From: an uncultured Caldisericota bacterium
Lineage (GTDB): Bacteria > Caldisericota > Caldisericia > Cryosericales > Cryosericaceae
Reading direction: 5' to 3'
DNA length: 64,000 nucleotides
Assembly: GCA_903871855.1 (NCBI GenBank)
Contig: CAIQIK010000012.1
Coordinates: 1 to 64,000 of the forward strand
The number at the start of each line of letters is the position of its first letter. The first letter of the stretch is position 1. Below, one piece after another: positions 17,085-64,000 of the stretch. The notes below the pieces were generated by a model. The model had not been told where the DNA came from. It worked only from the letters and a program-made list of their open reading frames with translations, and searched no databases. Position numbers and translations under genes: made by a program.

Positions 17085-18005
17085 GTGGAGATGCGAGTTC
17101 GAGAGTTCATCGATACCCATAGCGTGTTCACGTACCGTGAATTTGCGGTAGTCCATGATGGCGACGTGCCGTCAGCGGCACCAACGCGTGACGCACTGCT
17201 GAACCAGTACATTCGGGCTGGTCGCCTCGTCAGAGTTCGTCGTGAGCTCTATGTTACCGTGCCTCTGGGTGTCGGCCCTGCTGCGGCAGTCACTGACCCC
17301 ATGGCCATCGCTGCCAGGATGGCTGTTGACGCTGTTCTGGCCTACCATACGGCACTGGAGTACCATGGGGCTGCATATACTATCTACAGCCGGGTGACCT
17401 ATCTGACCAGTATCGGACAGCGCCCGTTTGCGTTCCAAGATATCATGTATGCTCCAGTGCCATTCCCTCATGTGCTGGTAAACGGTGATCGACAAAACAT
17501 GATGATCGATGAGGGGTTCAGGGGTACCACGTTGGTCCATGTCACGTCGCGCGAGCGGACGCTCGTCGATGTCCTCGATCGGGTCGGCCTGTCCGGTGGC
17601 TGGGAGGAAGCATGGCGATCGCTGGAAATGCTGTCTACCTTGGACCTGGAGTCCGTGGTCACATACGCGATGACACTGGCGAACGCAACCACAATCGCCA
17701 AGGTCGGGCTCTTTCTGGAACAGCATGCAGAGCAGTTGGCGGTGGACAATGGTGTTCTGGAGCGTTTGCGGACGCGCGTTCCGCGCGGTCTCCACTATGC
17801 CGATCGAGGCCGGGCCTCCACTGGGCGTCTGGTGGAACAATGGCATCTGATCATGCCGGTCACCGTTCTCGATAGGGCTGGGAGGAAGACAGGTGAGACT
17901 GAGCCACGACATTCTGATGGCAGACGCTGGCGCAACCGGCTTCCGCCCCGAGATCCTGGAGAAATGCGAGTTGCTACTCAGCCTCCTGCAGGGCCTGGTC
18001 GATGA
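17085..18005 (+). CDS. Type IV toxin-antitoxin system AbiEi-family antitoxin/regulator
   Basis: N-terminal wHTH-like segment, YIRAGRLVRVRRELYVTVP, AYHTALEYHGAAYTIYSRVTYLT, SRERTLVDVLDR; adjacent to an AbiEii-like gene. Confidence 0.8.
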   Translation: MEMRVREFIDTHSVFTYREFAVVHDGDVPSAAPTRDALLNQYIRAGRLVRVRRELYVTVPLGVGPAAAVTDPMAIAARMAVDAVLAYHTALEYHGAAYTIYSRVTYLTSIGQRPFAFQDIMYAPVPFPHVLVNGDRQNMMIDEGFRGTTLVHVTSRERTLVDVLDRVGLSGGWEEAWRSLEMLSTLDLESVVTYAMTLANATTIAKVGLFLEQHAEQLAVDNGVLERLRTRVPRGLHYADRGRASTGRLVEQWHLIMPVTVLDRAGRKTGETEPRHSDGRRWRNRLPPRDPGEMRVATQPPAGPGR

Positions 18006-18855
18006 TCCCTTTCTTGGTCCTCGACTGGTGCTAAAGGGAGGCACTGCACTCAACCTGTTTGTGTTCAAGGTTCCTCGGCTTTCGTTGGATGCTGACGTAA
18101 ACTACATCGGGGCTGCTGATGTCGGGAAAATGGAGGCCGAACGACCGCTGGTTGGAGCTGCCATCCGCAGCGTCTGCCAGCGCGAGGGCTTCCAGTTAGG
18201 TCGAACTCCAAACAAGCACGCGGGAGGAAAGTGGCATCTCGTGTACGCATCCGCATTAGGCGGCAACGCAGAGCTCCAACTGGATGTCAATTCCATGCTG
18301 AGGGCCCGCTTTGGCCGGTCGTTGCTCGGGATTCCAGGACTCTTGGACATGCAGGCGCTCACCGTACCCGTCCTCGATGTCAATGAGTTGGCAGCGGGCA
18401 AGCTGGCAGCTCTGCTGAGCCGTCACGCCAGTCGCGATCTGTTCGACGCGCATCAATTGCTTGCGAGTGACCTGCTGGATCCTGAGCGACTGCGCATCGC
18501 CTTCGTCGTGTACGGGGGAGCGAGCCGACTGGATTGGCGCACTGTAGCCATACGCGACGTGTTTTTCGAGGCGCGCGAATTACGTGACCAGCTCATTCCC
18601 GTCCTCCAGTGGCCTGCTAAGTCAGAGGGTGTCAGAGACTCGTTCGCCGAGCGCCTCCTGAATGAAACGAGAGCGATGCTCGCGGCCGTGCTGCCGCTGC
18701 GCGAACACGAGTCGGCTTTTCTGGAGTCGCTCCTGGGTGATGGAATCGTGGATGCTTCGCTCCTGACAGACGATCCAGTGCTCAGAGAACGTATTCAGGT
18801 GCAGCCCGGTCTCCACTGGAAAGCGCTCAATGTTCGCAAGACTCTAGGGCTCTGA
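17893..18855 (+). CDS. AbiEii-family nucleotidyltransferase toxin
   Basis: GTG start with upstream GGAGGAAG; LVLKGGTALNLFVFKVPRLSLDADVNYIG and ASRDLFDAHQLL. Confidence 0.82.
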   Translation: MRLSHDILMADAGATGFRPEILEKCELLLSLLQGLVDDPFLGPRLVLKGGTALNLFVFKVPRLSLDADVNYIGAADVGKMEAERPLVGAAIRSVCQREGFQLGRTPNKHAGGKWHLVYASALGGNAELQLDVNSMLRARFGRSLLGIPGLLDMQALTVPVLDVNELAAGKLAALLSRHASRDLFDAHQLLASDLLDPERLRIAFVVYGGASRLDWRTVAIRDVFFEARELRDQLIPVLQWPAKSEGVRDSFAERLLNETRAMLAAVLPLREHESAFLESLLGDGIVDASLLTDDPVLRERIQVQPGLHWKALNVRKTLGL

Positions 18856-37858: not shown

Positions 37859-38839
37859 ATGCATCTCGTAATTACGCAGGCTCAGTTCTGGTCGTTCCTC
37901 GTGGCTCTGGCGCTGAGCCTTGTGCTGACACCGGTCGTCATGAAACTTGGGCTGCGTCTTGGCATCACCGACAAACCAACTGCAACTGCTGACGCGACCA
38001 TCGACAGGCAACGGCGCAGAGTGAATAGCAAAGTGACTCCCCGCACTGGTGGCATCGCCATCGTGATCGCATTCATTGTGTCTGTGTTCTTCTTTGATTC
38101 ACTCACCATGCAGTTGAGGGGAATCCTGATCGGTGGAGGCATCGTGTTTATCGGCATGCTCCTGGACGACATGTTCGATATCCCCGCGTTGCTGAAGCTG
38201 CTGATACAATCGGTGGCAGCAGTTGTCGTCATTGCCTTTGGGGTCCGTGTGACCGCGTTCACCAACTTCCTGCACGGAGGATTCTTCCAGCTTGGCATCG
38301 GCGGCATCATCCTCACTTACTTCTGGATCGTGGGGATCACCAATGCGCTGAACCTCATCGATGGACTGGACGGTCTTGCGGGTGGCGTCGCTGCGCTGAT
38401 TCTCCTCGCAATGTTTTTCTTCGCCGCGCTCAAGAGTATGGCAACCATGGGGGCCATCCTTGTGGCGCTGCTTGGTGCTGTCCTGGGATTTCTTGTCTTC
38501 AACTACAATCCGGCAAAGGTGTTTCTTGGAGACGCCGGGTCCGAGTTTCTTGGGTTCATGATTGCAAGTCTTTCCGTCTATGGTGCCCTTAAACTCCCGA
38601 CAACTGTCATGCTCATCGTGTCGGTTTTTGCGCTTGGCATTCCCATCGCGGAAACAGTCTCGAGCATTTTCCGCCGGGCGGCCAGTCACAAATCCCCCAT
38701 GAAGGGAGACAATGGGCATTTCCATTATCTGCTGCTGTTCCGGGGGTGGAGCCAGCGGCGCATCACGACGTTGTACTACCTGGTGACGTTTGTGTTATGT
38801 TCGATTGGGTTAGCCATCGCCCTTCTGGGAGTTCACTGA
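37859..38839 (+). CDS. MraY/WecA-type undecaprenyl-phosphate glycosyl-1-phosphate transferase
   Basis: TPRTGGIAIV, LIDGLDGLAGGVAAL, FLGDAGSEFLGF. Confidence 0.92.
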   Translation: MHLVITQAQFWSFLVALALSLVLTPVVMKLGLRLGITDKPTATADATIDRQRRRVNSKVTPRTGGIAIVIAFIVSVFFFDSLTMQLRGILIGGGIVFIGMLLDDMFDIPALLKLLIQSVAAVVVIAFGVRVTAFTNFLHGGFFQLGIGGIILTYFWIVGITNALNLIDGLDGLAGGVAALILLAMFFFAALKSMATMGAILVALLGAVLGFLVFNYNPAKVFLGDAGSEFLGFMIASLSVYGALKLPTTVMLIVSVFALGIPIAETVSSIFRRAASHKSPMKGDNGHFHYLLLFRGWSQRRITTLYYLVTFVLCSIGLAIALLGVH

Positions 38840-38840
38840 C

Positions 38841-39953
38841 ATGCGCCACGATGTTTTGTCCATCTTTGGCACCCGTCCTGAGGGGATCAAGATGGCGCCT
38901 ATCGTCAAGGCACTAGAGGCCAACCCAAGGTTCAACAGCTACGTGCTCCTGACTGGCCAGCACATGCAAATGCTGGACGATGTCGTGGAGATGTTCGACA
39001 TACAGGTGTGGCGAGATCTCAATGTGATGAAGGAGCGTCAGACGCTTCCGTACTTGACGGCGGCGCTTGCAGCGCAGATTTCCGATGCGTTGGCAGAGCT
39101 GCAACCGGACTTGGTTCTGGTCCACGGAGATACGACGACCACCTTCATGGGGGCTCTCGCGGCGACCTATGCAAGGATCCCGGTGGGCCATGTCGAGGCA
39201 GGGCTCAGGTCCCATCAGAAATTCAGTCCTTTCCCCGAGGAAGTGAACCGCATGCTCACCGACCAGGTTTCTGACCTGTGCTTCGCGCCCACCGAGGAGG
39301 CCAAACAGAATCTCCTGCATGCAGGTATCGACACCGGCAGGATCGATGTCGTAGGAAACTCAATCGTGGATGCCGTGCGCATGGCCTTGCCCAACCTTCA
39401 TGCTCCGGACATCATGTCGAAGGTTCGGCCGGGTAGTCCCATGGTTATCATGACGGCACACCGCCGCGAAAACTGGGATACCGGCATTGCGATCTTCTCG
39501 AGCGCGCTCGTAAAGCTCTCCTGTTCACATCCGGAACTGACGTTTGTTTTTCCGGTACATCTCAACCCGGTTGTTCGGGAAACGGTTTTCGGGATTGCAT
39601 CGGACCTGCCAAACGTCGTGCTTACCGACCCTCTTCCCTACTTCGATTTCCTGTATTTGCTTGAGCATTGTGCCGCTGTTCTCAGCGACTCGGGTGGGAT
39701 CCAGGAAGAATGCGTAACGCTACACAAGCCGATGCTCCTTCTTCGTGAGGTCACTGAGCGTCCCGAGGCGGTGACAAGTGGCTGGGTCAAGCTGGTCGGT
39801 CAGGATGAGGAACTTATCGTCTCGTCGTTCGAGCAGCTCGTGGCAAGTGGTTTTGGAGTCTTGGGCGCGGATGGGGTCAATCCATATGGCAATGGGACAA
39901 CTGCGACGCAGATACTCACTCACATCGACGATTATCTCAATGCGACTCACTGA
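38841..39953 (+). CDS. wecB: UDP-N-acetylglucosamine 2-epimerase (non-hydrolysing)
   Basis: SIFGTRPEGIKMAPIVKAL, VHGDTTTTFMGALAA, HVEAGLRS, TAHRRENW, SDSGGIQEEC. Confidence 0.96.
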   Translation: MRHDVLSIFGTRPEGIKMAPIVKALEANPRFNSYVLLTGQHMQMLDDVVEMFDIQVWRDLNVMKERQTLPYLTAALAAQISDALAELQPDLVLVHGDTTTTFMGALAATYARIPVGHVEAGLRSHQKFSPFPEEVNRMLTDQVSDLCFAPTEEAKQNLLHAGIDTGRIDVVGNSIVDAVRMALPNLHAPDIMSKVRPGSPMVIMTAHRRENWDTGIAIFSSALVKLSCSHPELTFVFPVHLNPVVRETVFGIASDLPNVVLTDPLPYFDFLYLLEHCAAVLSDSGGIQEECVTLHKPMLLLREVTERPEAVTSGWVKLVGQDEELIVSSFEQLVASGFGVLGADGVNPYGNGTTATQILTHIDDYLNATH

Positions 39954-58326: not shown

Positions 58327-58998
58327 TTAGCCTGACTGTATTGTAGCCCGACTACGAGCGAGGGTCAAGTACAAACATTGATGCGGACGCGCTTGCAGGA
58401 TGACGTTCGTGGCGGCACAGACCGTAGCCCCAGTTGTCAGGACATCATCTACGATGATTACCGTCTTGGCGTACAACTGGTCGACCGCCTGAGGCGAAAG
58501 CTCGAACACACCATCGACATTTTTCAGGCGTTCCATATCTGACAACTGTGTCTGAAGAGGCGTGCGACAGGTCTTGAGCAAATAGCCACTGCCATAGTCA
58601 CCGCCTACACCCGTGGAAAGTATTCTGCATGCGACGTGTGGGAAGTGATGGGGATCTCTCTCATTCCGCGTACCGAACCGCGGAATGGGGACAAAAACCG
58701 GACAGTCTCCCAGTGGAAGAGTTCTTACGAGGCTCATCAGCATGCCGGAAAGCTGCCCAGCCAACTGATACTCACCTTGTACCTTCATCTGCAGAATTGC
58801 CTGTCGCAATGTTCCTTCATACCAAAACGCAGAAAAGCCCGACGCCCGACCAGCAGCGAGATGGGCGTCGCTCCATCCCGGGTCACACATTCGAAATAGA
58901 GAAGCACAGCCAGGGCAGATAGGAAGGTCCGACTCCTCACCGCAGAGAAAACAGGCCTTGTCAGCGAGGACTTGACGAAAAATCGAGAGAACGCTCAC
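58327..58998 (-). CDS. ComF-family phosphoribosyltransferase-like protein
   Basis: N-terminal zinc cysteines (CFLCGEESDLPICPGC), PRPP-binding VIIVDDVLTTGATVCAA. Confidence 0.92.
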   Translation of the reverse strand: MSVLSIFRQVLADKACFLCGEESDLPICPGCASLFRMCDPGWSDAHLAAGRASGFSAFWYEGTLRQAILQMKVQGEYQLAGQLSGMLMSLVRTLPLGDCPVFVPIPRFGTRNERDPHHFPHVACRILSTGVGGDYGSGYLLKTCRTPLQTQLSDMERLKNVDGVFELSPQAVDQLYAKTVIIVDDVLTTGATVCAATNVILQARPHQCLYLTLARSRATIQSG

Positions 58999-60047
58999 GG
59001 GTTGGGGCGTTCCAGAACAGCCTTCAGCCGAGTGATACGGTCTACTCTGGTCTGATCGAGTCGCACGATAGACTCGTCAGCCACGCGCGAGATACTTCCA
59101 CCGAGAACACGCCGAGCAGCCTGTTGTGGTGAGTCTCCTGGTTGGAAGGCATCGAAGCCACAGCAAGCGGCCAACTGAGAGACCTTTGGATCGTAGGCGA
59201 GTGCTACCAGCGGCGACCGCGCGGCGACCGCCGCTGCAGCCATATGATATCGTCCGGCAATAGTCAACGTAGCAGAACAGCAGAGGTCCAGCAGTTCCAG
59301 TGGCTGAGGCGAGCTGATGAGTTCTGATGGCGTGAGCAGACGGCCCCGAACAGCCCGTGTGAATGCCAGGTCTGCTGCCGGAAAGAGCACGACCAGATCA
59401 AGCCGGGCAGATGATTGGGACCCGAGGCAGTCGAGAAATGAGGCCGTCTCTTCTGGCGTCCACCCGAAGCGTTCGTTGACACAGGCGACGATCCGGGACT
59501 TGCGGCGAGCACCTGTAACAAGTTCACCGCGTCGGTTGACGAGATAGGAAAGCCCGGCATCGGACGACACGGAAATACTTGGTGTTCGAATCCCGCAACC
59601 GAGCAGGAGGTCTCTTGAGGCGTCATCGCGTACATCAATGAGGATCATGCGGCTGAAGACGGCCCTGACCAGACGACGGATCCATAGCCGCTTGACTGGG
59701 CCGATACCCTGTGCGTAGGAGATGACCCCCTTCTTGTACAGCGTTGCCACCAGAGGAATGCCCAAATAGTACAAGCTGCTTCGCCAGCTGGTGACGTCCT
59801 GGATGAGACCTCCCCCGCCCAACATCACATAGTCACACTCTCTGAGAGCTGCTCTCATCGCTGTCAGGTCATGTCGATCAACGAGCGTGTACCGCGGACA
59901 GACGAGGGTGGCATACTGGCCCGGTTCATTGACTGCAAACACCGCTTCACAGTTGATATTCGTCAGTTCATCCTGCACAGCCGAGAAAATGAGCTCGTCG
60001 CCGAAATTGCCAAAACCATAGTAGCCCAAGACGAGAATTCGGCTCAT
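58995..60047 (-). CDS. csaB: CsaB-like polysaccharide pyruvyl transferase
   Basis: ILVLGYYGFGNFGDELIFSAVQ, LGGGGLIQDVTS, GRYHMAAAAVAARSPLVAL. Confidence 0.9.
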   Translation of the reverse strand: MSRILVLGYYGFGNFGDELIFSAVQDELTNINCEAVFAVNEPGQYATLVCPRYTLVDRHDLTAMRAALRECDYVMLGGGGLIQDVTSWRSSLYYLGIPLVATLYKKGVISYAQGIGPVKRLWIRRLVRAVFSRMILIDVRDDASRDLLLGCGIRTPSISVSSDAGLSYLVNRRGELVTGARRKSRIVACVNERFGWTPEETASFLDCLGSQSSARLDLVVLFPAADLAFTRAVRGRLLTPSELISSPQPLELLDLCCSATLTIAGRYHMAAAAVAARSPLVALAYDPKVSQLAACCGFDAFQPGDSPQQAARRVLGGSISRVADESIVRLDQTRVDRITRLKAVLERPNP

Positions 60048-61514
60048 CTAGCTCCGGGGTGCCGTCCGACGATGCGCAAGCACACGGAACATGAAATAGA
60101 AGATACTCCCCACGCGCCGTATACGGCTTGGCTGAACGACCAGTCTGTATAGCCACTCCGTGCCAGTCTTCTGAACGAATCGAGGGGCTCGGCGGACGAG
60201 TCCGCTCCAGACATCGAATGTGCCGCCTACCCCAATTGCGATAGGGATACCCATGTCGCGATGGTGCCAGATCCATTTCTCCTGGGCTCCCCCGCCCATG
60301 CCGACCAAGAGAATGTCGACGTGCGCTTCCTGGATTTCGTGGATTATGTGCGCTTCCTCTGCTGCATCGAAGTAGCCGGAATGGTAACCGACAACATGAA
60401 GATTCGGGTAACGTGTCATGGCGTTGGAGGCGGCCCGTTTGACGATATCCGGCTTTGCACCGAGGAAGTACACGCGGTAGCCCTGGCGCTCGGCGAGTGC
60501 CAGCAGAGAACCCGAAAACTCGATGCCGGGGATGCGGTTCTCGATGCGTGAACCCAGCATGCGTGCTCCCCAGACGATGCCAACGCCGTCAGCAACGACC
60601 AGATCCGCCTGCTGGACAATTGCCAGAAACTCGGTGTCCCTGAACGCACGAGCTGCCATTTCGCCATTCAGCGTCACAACGAGGTGAGGTGCTCCGCTTG
60701 TCACGAAACCGTCTGCGATCTCGAGAAGCTCGTCGATATCCCTGTCGCTGATAGAAATGCCAAAGAAGTCGATGCTGTCGACATGTTCCCGGGGTGATCG
60801 GAGTACAATACCCACAAACCGCGGAAGCGAGAGGATCCGAGGCAACCGCTTGGGATCGAGGACGAACCGGTAGAGCCACTCAAGACCGAGTCTCTGGATG
60901 TGGTCAGGTGCGCGTTTAAACTCACCCGACAGGACGTTGTAACTTCCTCCGACACCCATGGCAAATGGGATCCCCATCGCGGAGAGGTTGGCGGCAAGAA
61001 ACTTTTCCTGCTTGGGACTACCCATGCCGACGAACATGATGTCCGCTCTGGCAGCTGCGATCTCTGCAACCAGGGCAGACTCATCAACGGCAGTGAAGTA
61101 CCCGTCGCGTGATCCGGCTACAACGAGACCAGGGTATCTCTCCTTCACGATTGTCACCACTCTGGACAGGACTTCCGGGCGTGACCCAAGAAGAAAGAGG
61201 CGCCATCCACGTGTATCTGCCAGCTCGAGCAGCCGCAAGAACAGATCGACACCGGTGACTCGGGACTTGATACGCTCGTGGTAGAACACGCGGGAAGCCC
61301 AGATGATTCCTATGCCGTCGCAGAAATTCAGGTCGCTTTTTCGCAGGACCTTCTGAAGGGCTTTGTCCTGTTTAGCCTTAATAACCTTCTCAGGATTGAT
61401 GGCCACACCCATATGCGGAGTGCGCGACGCAACGAAGCCCTCGACAACAGTGAGAGCTTCGTCGATGTCCAGGTTGTCGACCGGAATACCGGCGACGTGG
61501 ACTCGTTCAGCCAT
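60048..61514 (-). CDS. Tandem-duplicated WecG/TagA/CpsF-family glycosyltransferase
   Basis: Two TagA-type domains: AINPEKVIKAKQD...FCDGIGIIWASR...MGSPKQEKFL...GVGGSYNVLSGEFKRAP and TLNGEMAARAFRD...VADGVGIVWGAR...MGGGAQEKWI...GVGGTFDVWSGLVRRAP. Confidence 0.93.
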   Translation of the reverse strand: MAERVHVAGIPVDNLDIDEALTVVEGFVASRTPHMGVAINPEKVIKAKQDKALQKVLRKSDLNFCDGIGIIWASRVFYHERIKSRVTGVDLFLRLLELADTRGWRLFLLGSRPEVLSRVVTIVKERYPGLVVAGSRDGYFTAVDESALVAEIAAARADIMFVGMGSPKQEKFLAANLSAMGIPFAMGVGGSYNVLSGEFKRAPDHIQRLGLEWLYRFVLDPKRLPRILSLPRFVGIVLRSPREHVDSIDFFGISISDRDIDELLEIADGFVTSGAPHLVVTLNGEMAARAFRDTEFLAIVQQADLVVADGVGIVWGARMLGSRIENRIPGIEFSGSLLALAERQGYRVYFLGAKPDIVKRAASNAMTRYPNLHVVGYHSGYFDAAEEAHIIHEIQEAHVDILLVGMGGGAQEKWIWHHRDMGIPIAIGVGGTFDVWSGLVRRAPRFVQKTGTEWLYRLVVQPSRIRRVGSIFYFMFRVLAHRRTAPRS

Positions 61515-61537: not shown

Positions 61538-62854
61538 CTACAGACGAACGTACCAGGGTTGTTGGAGAACGTCTGCGTCATGTTCGAACACCCCCCTGAA
61601 GTCACACAGAATCACGCACCCAGCTGCTGCGATAACAATCTTTTTCACGCGCTCATAGTCCACATTTCCCTGTCGAATCGGCAAGACAAGTGCGTCTGCC
61701 CACAACGAGCCCGCATCGATGTCTGTTTCGCGTCCGAATTCCTTGGGCGCCTCAGCAATGCTGTCGAAAACACGCACTTCGGCTCCTTCCTTCGCAAGCG
61801 CTGTGGCAAGGTCAACGGCTGGACTCACAGAAACGTCGTCCGAGTAGTCCTTCATGGCAATGCCGACGAACAGTACATGCTTGCCCGTAAGTCCACCCAT
61901 CCTTCTGGACATGCGCCCGGCGATGTAACCAGGCTGAGCGGCGTTTGCCCGACGTGCAGAGACGAAGGTCGGCAGCAAGTCGCTGCATTCGTCCTGACTT
62001 GAGAGTGATCCGAACAGATAGGGCGAGGCATAGGGGATGCAGTGCCCCCCGACGCCGATGCCAGGCATGAGAATCTTGACTCTCGAGTGGGTATTGCAAG
62101 CCTCAATAAGTTCCCAGGTAGGAATATCGAAGCGATTCGCAAAGCGCGCCAGCTGGTCGGCGACTGCGATGTTGACGTCTCGCTGAGCATTCTCGAACAT
62201 CTTCGCCGCTTCCACAAGTTCAATGGAGGACGCTTTGAAGACAGGTTCGCGATTGACGGCCCCGAGCACCTGAGTCGCGCGGTCGAGGCTCCTGGCGTTA
62301 ATGCCCCCGACGACCAGTGGCATATTGCGAAACTCATCATAGGCGTGCCCTTCGGCTATTCGCTCCGAAGAATACGCGAGGTCGAAGTCGATGCCTGCTG
62401 CCAGTCCGCTTGCGTGTTCCAGCGTGGAGAGCACGAGGCCGCGGGTCGTGCCGACAGGTACGGTAGACCGGCAGATGACAAGATCCTCCTTCTTGAGGAG
62501 CTTGCCAACCTCGGCGCAGGCGCCCGCCAGCATGCTCATGTCCAGAGTCCATGAATTGTCGATAGGGATGCCGACTGTAATAATGAAGGCTGCCACGTCC
62601 TTCGGGAGTTCATCGAACTTGCTGGTAACGTTGAGACTGCCATTTGCAAGACACGTTCGGAGGACATCATTGACCGGTATGCCGTCGAAGTCCTCGCGCA
62701 TACCGAGCGAAGAGGCCTTGATGGACGCGATGCGACGTGGGTCGATATCGACTCCCGAGACCTGAAAGCCGTCCAGTGCATAGGTAAGTGCAAGAGGCAG
62801 GCCAACATACCCAAGACCGACAATCGCAAGCTTCCTTTCCATCTTTTCCTCCAT
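61538..62854 (-). CDS. Nucleotide sugar dehydrogenase (UDP-ManNAc/UDP-Glc dehydrogenase family)
   Basis: LAIVGLGYVGLPLALTYALDGFQVSGVDID, ICRSTVPVGTTRGLV, PGIGVGGHCIPYASPYL. Confidence 0.93.
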   Translation of the reverse strand: MEEKMERKLAIVGLGYVGLPLALTYALDGFQVSGVDIDPRRIASIKASSLGMREDFDGIPVNDVLRTCLANGSLNVTSKFDELPKDVAAFIITVGIPIDNSWTLDMSMLAGACAEVGKLLKKEDLVICRSTVPVGTTRGLVLSTLEHASGLAAGIDFDLAYSSERIAEGHAYDEFRNMPLVVGGINARSLDRATQVLGAVNREPVFKASSIELVEAAKMFENAQRDVNIAVADQLARFANRFDIPTWELIEACNTHSRVKILMPGIGVGGHCIPYASPYLFGSLSSQDECSDLLPTFVSARRANAAQPGYIAGRMSRRMGGLTGKHVLFVGIAMKDYSDDVSVSPAVDLATALAKEGAEVRVFDSIAEAPKEFGRETDIDAGSLWADALVLPIRQGNVDYERVKKIVIAAAGCVILCDFRGVFEHDADVLQQPWYVRL

Positions 62855-62856
62855 AT

Positions 62857-64000
62857 TCAGGACTGGTGGTGTGCTACAGCGTCAAGCACGCGGTCGAATT
62901 CAGCGATGCGGAACGACCAGTCAAAACGTCGGGACGATTGCACGCGGAAGCGACGGAGGTCTAGCGAATCTGTATCGAGGGTATCTTGCACTGCCGAGAC
63001 AAACTCCTGAGGAGTAGCTGCAAGTCGTACCATGTCTTCGCCGAATGCTCCGAGGGCGTGAATTGTCGACGAGACCACGGGTAGTCCAGCCGAGACATAT
63101 TCATAGAATTTCAGCGGGTCGACGCCCAAGGTCAGCGGCGATTCACGGAAGGGGATAAGCGCGACGTCGTACTGGGGAGCCTCCTGGGCGATCGCAGTCT
63201 GGGACAGCGTTCCCTTGAAAACGATGTTGGTATGGGTGGCCAGTTGGTCGCGCACAGCTGGAAGGGCGTCGCCGAAGCAGTCAATCTCACAGTCTGAATA
63301 CGCGGCAGCAACAGCGCCGAGCGCCTGTACGTCGAACCATTCACGCATTGCCCCGACGTACAGGAATCTGCGTTGCTTCGGCAGTGTGGTCAATGTGTCG
63401 AGCCACGTCACGGCAGGTGCGGCGAACAGCTCGTGGTCCACGCCGTTTTGGATCAGGCTGAGCTTATCCTCGTGCGACGAAAACTTGGCCGCAATTGTTT
63501 CGTTGGTGACAATTACAGCAGATGCGATGTTGGCAGTCCGAGCCTCAAGGCGGTCGACGGTAGTCTTGTTGAGGAGTCCTGGATAAGCGCTGTGGTCATC
63601 GACGCAGTCGTACACGACCGGAGCGCCAAGCAACTGAAGAGTTCTCGGGACAAACGGCAGATACGTCAGGATGATATCGGCTTCGGCCGTCCAGCCTCCA
63701 GCGAGACTTTGCAGATAGCGGTAGTAGGTGAGCGAATCGTGGTCTGCCACACGCTCATACTTCTTGAAGTACGGAAGCCACGGTGTCGGCGACGCTGTCC
63801 ACATATGCTCTCCCTGCTTGTGTGTGCCCGACCGCCAGGCATTTAGCTTCCACCACTGCTCACGGCGAGCCGCCGCTAGCCAGGTTACCGGGGCCTCGAC
63901 GTAGAGCACGTCATAGCCTCGTTCGGCCAATCGGCGGGCAAAGCGCTGTTTTCGGCTGGGGAACGAGCGATAGTTATTGGTACTGAGGACAAGCGCCTTC
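62857..64000 (-). CDS. Family 4-like glycosyltransferase, N-terminus beyond window edge
   Basis: Frame open to the edge (KALVLSTNNYRSFPSRKQRFARRLAERGYDVLYVEAP...); SLIQNGVDHELF, PLKFYEYVSAGLPVVSS. Confidence 0.88.
   Translation of the reverse strand, partial: KALVLSTNNYRSFPSRKQRFARRLAERGYDVLYVEAPVTWLAAARREQWWKLNAWRSGTHKQGEHMWTASPTPWLPYFKKYERVADHDSLTYYRYLQSLAGGWTAEADIILTYLPFVPRTLQLLGAPVVYDCVDDHSAYPGLLNKTTVDRLEARTANIASAVIVTNETIAAKFSSHEDKLSLIQNGVDHELFAAPAVTWLDTLTTLPKQRRFLYVGAMREWFDVQALGAVAAAYSDCEIDCFGDALPAVRDQLATHTNIVFKGTLSQTAIAQEAPQYDVALIPFRESPLTLGVDPLKFYEYVSAGLPVVSSTIHALGAFGEDMVRLAATPQEFVSAVQDTLDTDSLDLRRFRVQSSRRFDWSFRIAEFDRVLDAVAHHQS

Follow-up and report, generated by a model that had tools for sequence, protein, structure and literature searches.

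A tandem TagA/WecG-family glycosyltransferase of Candidatus Cryosericum, predicted to transfer two different sugars to a pyruvylated cell-wall polymer

The DNA analysed here, a stretch of 64,000 nucleotides that we call the window, comes from the genome of a Candidatus Cryosericum species in the phylum Caldisericota, and carries a group of minus-strand genes built around a tandem glycosyltransferase (Table 1). This protein is read from a single unbroken frame of 488 aa (61514..60048, minus strand), and Pfam recognises PF03808 in it twice (E 7.7e-119, 393.9 bits, cut-off 27.4), each domain spanning nearly the whole profile. A first-pass annotation made from the DNA letters had described two complete TagA-family domains in one polypeptide; both the architecture and the two expected PF03808 matches are confirmed, and all of the family motifs occur as it quoted them. 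In a profile search of the genome the N half scores 194.5 bits and the C half 205.1 bits, and no further PF03808 match was found in the assembly, which is 94.8% complete. The two halves share 40% identity across 234 residues (E 2e-64). An AlphaFold2 model based on a 26-sequence alignment is confident in both domains (mean pLDDT 90.1, pTM 0.83) and shows the same series of secondary-structure elements twice. Foldseek matches this model to crystal structures of Thermoanaerobacter italicus TagA (7n41, 7mpk, 5wb4; TM-score ~0.95 on the target), which have the GT-E fold of family GT26. Full-length tandems recur in 12 of the 15 genus genomes and in 13 of the 18 from family f3, which contains Caldisericum, so an error of sequencing or assembly is excluded as the source of the protein; most of the genomes without a full-length tandem are incomplete or have the gene cut at a contig end. 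The fusion is a fixed trait of the genus and of the Caldisericum-containing family.

Table 1. Features of the tandem glycosyltransferase locus and related genes in the window.
Feature	Position	Strand	Basis
Tandem TagA/WecG glycosyltransferase, GT26, PF03808 x2, 488 aa	60048..61514	minus	Pfam, AlphaFold2, Foldseek
N half, aa 1-244, WecG-like domain	60783..61514	minus	residues, invariant columns, WecG model score
C half, aa 245-488 incl. stop, TagA-like domain	60048..60782	minus	residues, invariant columns, TarA model score
CsaB-type polysaccharide pyruvyl transferase	58995..60047	minus	TIGR03609 211.0 bits, cut-off 213.1
Nucleotide-sugar dehydrogenase, UDP-ManNAc dehydrogenase-like	61538..62854	minus	TIGR03026 288 bits
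GT4-type glycosyltransferase, same operon as tandem	62857..63930	minus	Pfam
ComFC-like phosphoribosyltransferase, conserved next gene	58327..58998	minus	Pfam
TagO/WecA-type GlcNAc-1-P:undecaprenyl-P transferase	37859..38839	plus	TIGR02380 124.5 bits, well below cut-off
UDP-GlcNAc 2-epimerase WecB/MnaA, UDP-ManNAc source	38841..39953	plus	TIGR00236 410 bits, cut-off 210

The genes on either side of the tandem suggest the pathway in which it acts. The start of the csaB-type gene, directly after the C half, abuts the tandem's stop codon, and the dehydrogenase gene lies directly before the N half. The best equivalog models for this dehydrogenase are UDP-ManNAc dehydrogenases, all scoring below their cut-offs; its best PDB match is 4r16, annotated as a UDP-ManNAcA dehydrogenase, another of its top three is Cap5O, which we take to be a UDP-ManNAc dehydrogenase, and it is ~30% identical to E. 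coli WecC. The GT4 gene has an earlier in-frame start beyond the window (L033:5858-7066), where the operon continues upstream with genes for a GT4 enzyme, a Wzy_C protein, a GT2 enzyme and a LytR-CpsA-Psr (LCP) protein. In several f3 genomes the TagO-like and UDP-GlcNAc 2-epimerase genes share the tandem's cluster, and the Cryosericum genome holds 13 matches to the SLH domain. A CsaB beside a TagA domain, together with TagO, MnaA and SLH proteins, is the gene set of a pyruvylated secondary-cell-wall-polymer (SCWP) system, with the qualification that CsaB scores 2 bits, and TagO well, below its own equivalog cut-off. The ComFC-like gene follows csaB in most of the Caldisericota loci examined (L036-L051), with no evident role in a polymer pathway. 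Elsewhere in the window, two overlapping frames of 306 and 320 aa (17085-18855) resemble by eye an AbiE-type antitoxin and nucleotidyltransferase toxin.

The TagA enzyme of T. italicus provides a map of the active site. Asp65 is the catalytic base and Thr37 a modelled contact to the donor sugar; Asn39, Arg83, Gln167 and Glu168 line the pocket, Tyr137 stacks on the uracil, Asp191 lies at the ribose, and Arg214, Arg221 and Arg224 belong to a C-terminal appendage through which the active monomer forms (PMC6493773). Substitution lowers activity ~4-fold for T37A and ~30-fold for D65A (PMC6493773). In the tandem, the corresponding residues are A38 (for Thr37), N40, D66 (the base), R85, Y139, Q169/E170, R216, R223 and R226 in the N half, and T281 (for Thr37), N283, D309 (the base), R327, Y381, Q411/E412, R457, R464 and R467 in the C half. 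Both halves therefore keep the equivalents of TagA D65, N39, R83, Q167, E168, R214, R221 and R224 and, with PF03808 above its gathering score, belong to GT26. The N half departs from the listed TagA residues at two positions, Thr37 to Ala and Asp191 to Asn, and the C half at none.

Throughout the Caldisericota tandems each half retains the catalytic-pocket residues and the arginine appendage, and pairwise dN/dS within the genus is ~0.06-0.2 in both halves alike, placing both under purifying selection. Because both the catalytic residues and this constraint extend to each half, the sequences make a dead half unlikely. These observations bear on the obligate pseudo-dimer raised in the first-pass annotation, read here as a catalytic half paired with a structural or regulatory one, in place of the inactive homodimer of TagA. 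That TagA lacking its C-terminal tail is a dimer in solution (PMC6493773) speaks for such an arrangement, but the appendage present in both halves is used by the active monomer only, and with a complete pocket and similar constraint on each side we regard a pseudo-dimer as very unlikely.

The clearest difference between the halves lies around the Thr37 position, where the N half reads VAINPEK, against VAINAEK in E. coli WecG, and the C half VTLNGEM, against ATPNAEI in TagA. Alanine occupies this position in all N halves, as it does in E. coli WecG and the gammaproteobacterial proteins related to it, and threonine in all C halves that have the column. E. coli WecG uses UDP-ManNAcA as its donor and TagA uses UDP-ManNAc; in ManNAcA, the carboxylate is carried at C6. 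Thr37 has been proposed to hold or touch a hydroxyl of ManNAc, placed at C5 in the text and at C6 in a figure legend of the same paper (PMC6493773). The C half thus has the TagA-type threonine that the N half lacks, and the N half combines alanine at position 37 with a dehydrogenase partner gene, as WecG does. Profile scores lean the same way: the N half scores 173.7 bits with the WecG model versus 163.2 with TarA, and the C half 180.7 bits with TarA versus 132.4 with WecG. Neither half reaches an equivalog cut-off, the TagA/TarA model NF041710 (cut-off 350) giving 180.7 for the C half and 340 for the whole protein with its two domains summed, and the WecG model NF002980 (cut-off 323) giving 173.7 for the N half as compared with 444 for E. 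coli WecG. We dropped the whole-domain score as a test of donor since it fails to separate Bacillota Ala37 genes from TagA, two of them (L128, L202) scoring higher for TarA. Our literature search found neither a donor rule based on Thr37/Ala nor a tandem TagA protein.

Comparison across Caldisericota suggests how the two domains came together. Family f2 encodes two separate adjoining genes, N-like and then C-like, followed by csaB; its N-type gene carries Pro37 and lacks a neighbouring dehydrogenase gene. The loci examined from families f4-f7 each encode a single TagA domain, carrying Thr37, which adjoins csaB in f4 and f7 and lies within a GT4-TagA-CsaB fusion in f5 and f6. In an SH-aLRT tree all N halves form one clade (99), as do N halves plus the f2 N-like genes (99) and all C halves (99), while the C halves, the f2 C-like genes and most single genes group loosely (90). 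Because the separate f2 genes group with the N half (99) and near the C half (90), the tandem arose by the joining of two genes that were distinct beforehand. A recent duplication inside one reading frame is accordingly rejected, given separate orthologues in f2 and the clade of N halves with f2 N-like genes; the first-pass proposal of an old duplication holds as regards the long divergence of the halves and not as regards duplication within the frame. For the deep order of the tree, AU tests (p 0.70, 0.78, 0.44) reject neither an origin of both halves within Caldisericota nor an affinity between the N half and WecG (p 0.78 for the tree holding these together). One f2 genome (G031) has a third PF03808 copy on another contig (G031:C180:5097-5711), besides its two adjoining genes. 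The f5/f6 fusions are proteins of ~1000 aa with Thr37 (L048:5568-8591, L049:6218-9178, L050:1358-4444; domains assigned by Pfam for L048 and L050 and by BLAST for L049), possibly three-step enzymes of the same wall-polymer pathway.

Gene order follows domain identity. Almost every f1 and f3 locus examined has the order dehydrogenase, Ala37 domain, Thr37 domain, CsaB; in two f3 loci (L039, L044) no CsaB was detected beside the tandem. Presence or absence of the dehydrogenase across the phylum was set aside as a test of the N half, since homologues occur nearly everywhere in Caldisericota, including families without an Ala37 half. Both halves might instead carry out the same reaction, either two ManNAc additions or plain redundancy, as membership of one family and 40% identity would allow; set against the fixed Ala/Thr difference at the donor site, the distinct partner genes and a divergence older than the fusion, this seems highly improbable.

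Bacillota provide a second instance of the pairing. A metagenome-assembled genome (L074, JAAZDU010000051.1) encodes, in order, DUF5693, CsaB, a tandem of 493 aa and a WecC that shares 43% identity with that of E. coli. The tandem opens with a Ser37 domain on the CsaB side and ends with an Ala37 domain on the WecC side, the mirror of the Caldisericota domain order. The halves of this tandem group with separate Bacillota genes and not with the Caldisericota halves (99, 100; SH-aLRT tree), which makes it, on this phylogeny, a fusion independent of that in Caldisericota. Where relatives keep the two genes apart, the one with Ala37 directly adjoins wecC and the one with Ser37 adjoins csaB-DUF5693; one such genome (G274) has them on different contigs, each in its own cluster and with its own partners. 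A further 299 Bacillota genomes yielded no other tandem. A survey showing the architecture to be common would have counted against the first-pass annotation; in the genomes sampled, this Bacillota protein is the one tandem found outside families f1 and f3. In a second phylum, searched with the N half as query (251 genomes), no tandem appears among the matches listed. Many TagA-family genes of that phylum (L164-L193, via G057) lie in 500-660-aa frames with a long N-terminal extension, and in these genes Asp replaces Asn at TagA position 39.

We had set beforehand the prediction that PF03808 genes directly beside a WecC-type gene carry Ala37. Among 399 Bacillota genomes, two new genes abut wecC (L202, L212), and both carry Ala37, compared with 0/39 Bacillota genes without an adjoining dehydrogenase (Fisher p 0.001 on the new loci alone, a small sample uncorrected for relatedness). 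At a further locus, where a GT4 gene separates the TagA-family gene from the dehydrogenase (L213), the residue is Ser. The halves may also differ in donor with the N half using another UDP-uronic acid, for example UDP-GlcNAcA or a diacetamido-mannuronic acid. The distance of the Cryosericum dehydrogenase from E. coli WecC, its scores under every equivalog cut-off and the N half's own change at the ribose contact (Asp191 to Asn) leave room for such a donor; we nevertheless judge it unlikely, as the highest-scoring curated models, and two of the enzyme's three leading PDB matches (4r16, Cap5O), point to UDP-ManNAc, and the counterpart locus in L074 has a closer match to WecC.

The reading that we favour, and consider fairly probable from these comparisons, is that the tandem is bifunctional, transferring both ManNAcA and ManNAc in the synthesis of a pyruvylated wall polymer to which SLH domains bind. 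We propose that it acts as a cytoplasmic, membrane-associated GT26 enzyme of an SCWP pathway, in which TagO would make GlcNAc-PP-undecaprenol, WecB/MnaA would supply UDP-ManNAc, and the adjoining dehydrogenase would oxidise part of this to UDP-ManNAcA. The N half, with Ala at the donor-contact position, would transfer ManNAcA, and the C half, with Thr, would transfer ManNAc, to which CsaB would then add a 4,6-pyruvate ketal. Wzy-, LCP- and GT-type products of the operon would complete the polymer and link it to peptidoglycan, where SLH-domain proteins would bind it. The donors, reaction order, linkage and product in this scheme are predicted, whereas the two intact domains, their residue differences, the gene order and the fusion history are observed. 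CsaB makes a 4,6-ketal, and the bond made by TagA is beta-1,4. Should the two halves work on a single chain, we would put pyruvate at the end, after ManNAcA and then ManNAc, since pyruvylation at 4,6 leaves ManNAc without the free O4 that a beta-1,4 transfer needs.

Known WecG and TagA enzymes both accept GlcNAc-PP-lipid, so sequential action requires a new acceptor for one of the halves. The suggestion of subfunctionalisation through two successive sugar additions in the first-pass annotation therefore fits as to a WecG-like (ManNAcA) N half and a TagA-like (ManNAc) C half, and its sequential part would call for this change of acceptor. The halves could instead work in parallel, both on lipid-linked GlcNAc, to give two disaccharide lipids and two polymers whose amounts the fusion balances. 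This would follow the behaviour of the single-domain enzymes and the separate clusters in G274; in Cryosericum, however, we see one TagA-family protein and one operon with both CsaB and the dehydrogenase, and we think parallel action decidedly unlikely. It concerns the acceptor only and is compatible with two donors. A bolder form of the bifunctional reading is that one polypeptide adds ManNAcA and then ManNAc to the same lipid carrier and passes the product to CsaB, combining an ECA-type with an SCWP-type repeat, and that residue 37 marks the donor across the TagA/WecG part of GT26; we put this forward tentatively, as possible though doubtful.

Parts of this scheme have precedents. The TagA/TarA enzymes of T. 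italicus, B. subtilis, S. aureus and P. alvei share the fold, active site and C-terminal appendage (PMC6030368, PMC6493773), but are single domains of ~245 aa with no fused second domain, and have Thr37 (T. italicus). P. alvei TagA also has a CsaB neighbour and MnaA as donor source; there the TagA-CsaB chemistry has been reconstituted in vitro, with TagA and then CsaB acting on the lipid-linked repeat (PMC6030368). The ligand of SLH domains is pyruvylated ManNAc (PMC7831098). E. coli WecG/RffM, of enterobacterial common antigen (ECA) synthesis, resembles the N half in Ala at the Thr37 position, the AIN-EK motif, SPKQE and a UDP-ManNAc dehydrogenase in the same cluster, but is a single domain without CsaB, and its product goes to ECA and not to a pyruvylated wall polymer. 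By function alone, the teichuronic acid synthetase of Micrococcus luteus is similar in coupling two transferase activities, one of them ManNAcA transfer, although these reside in separate subunits and the other is a glucosyltransferase (PMC3005890). The Caldisericota GT4-TagA-CsaB fusions (L048, L050) likewise join a TagA domain covalently to pathway partners, but they have a single TagA domain (Thr37), and the partners are GT4 and CsaB.

Our literature search found nothing on the envelope chemistry of the phylum Caldisericota, for which the favoured reading, if true, would predict a new pyruvylated, ManNAcA-containing wall polymer. It would also provide a sequence rule for telling neutral- from acidic-donor TagA-family enzymes, and, for the preparation of lipid-linked oligosaccharides, an enzyme that naturally combines two reactions. 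The mirror-image fusion in Bacillota suggests that pairing the two steps may have been useful enough to evolve twice.
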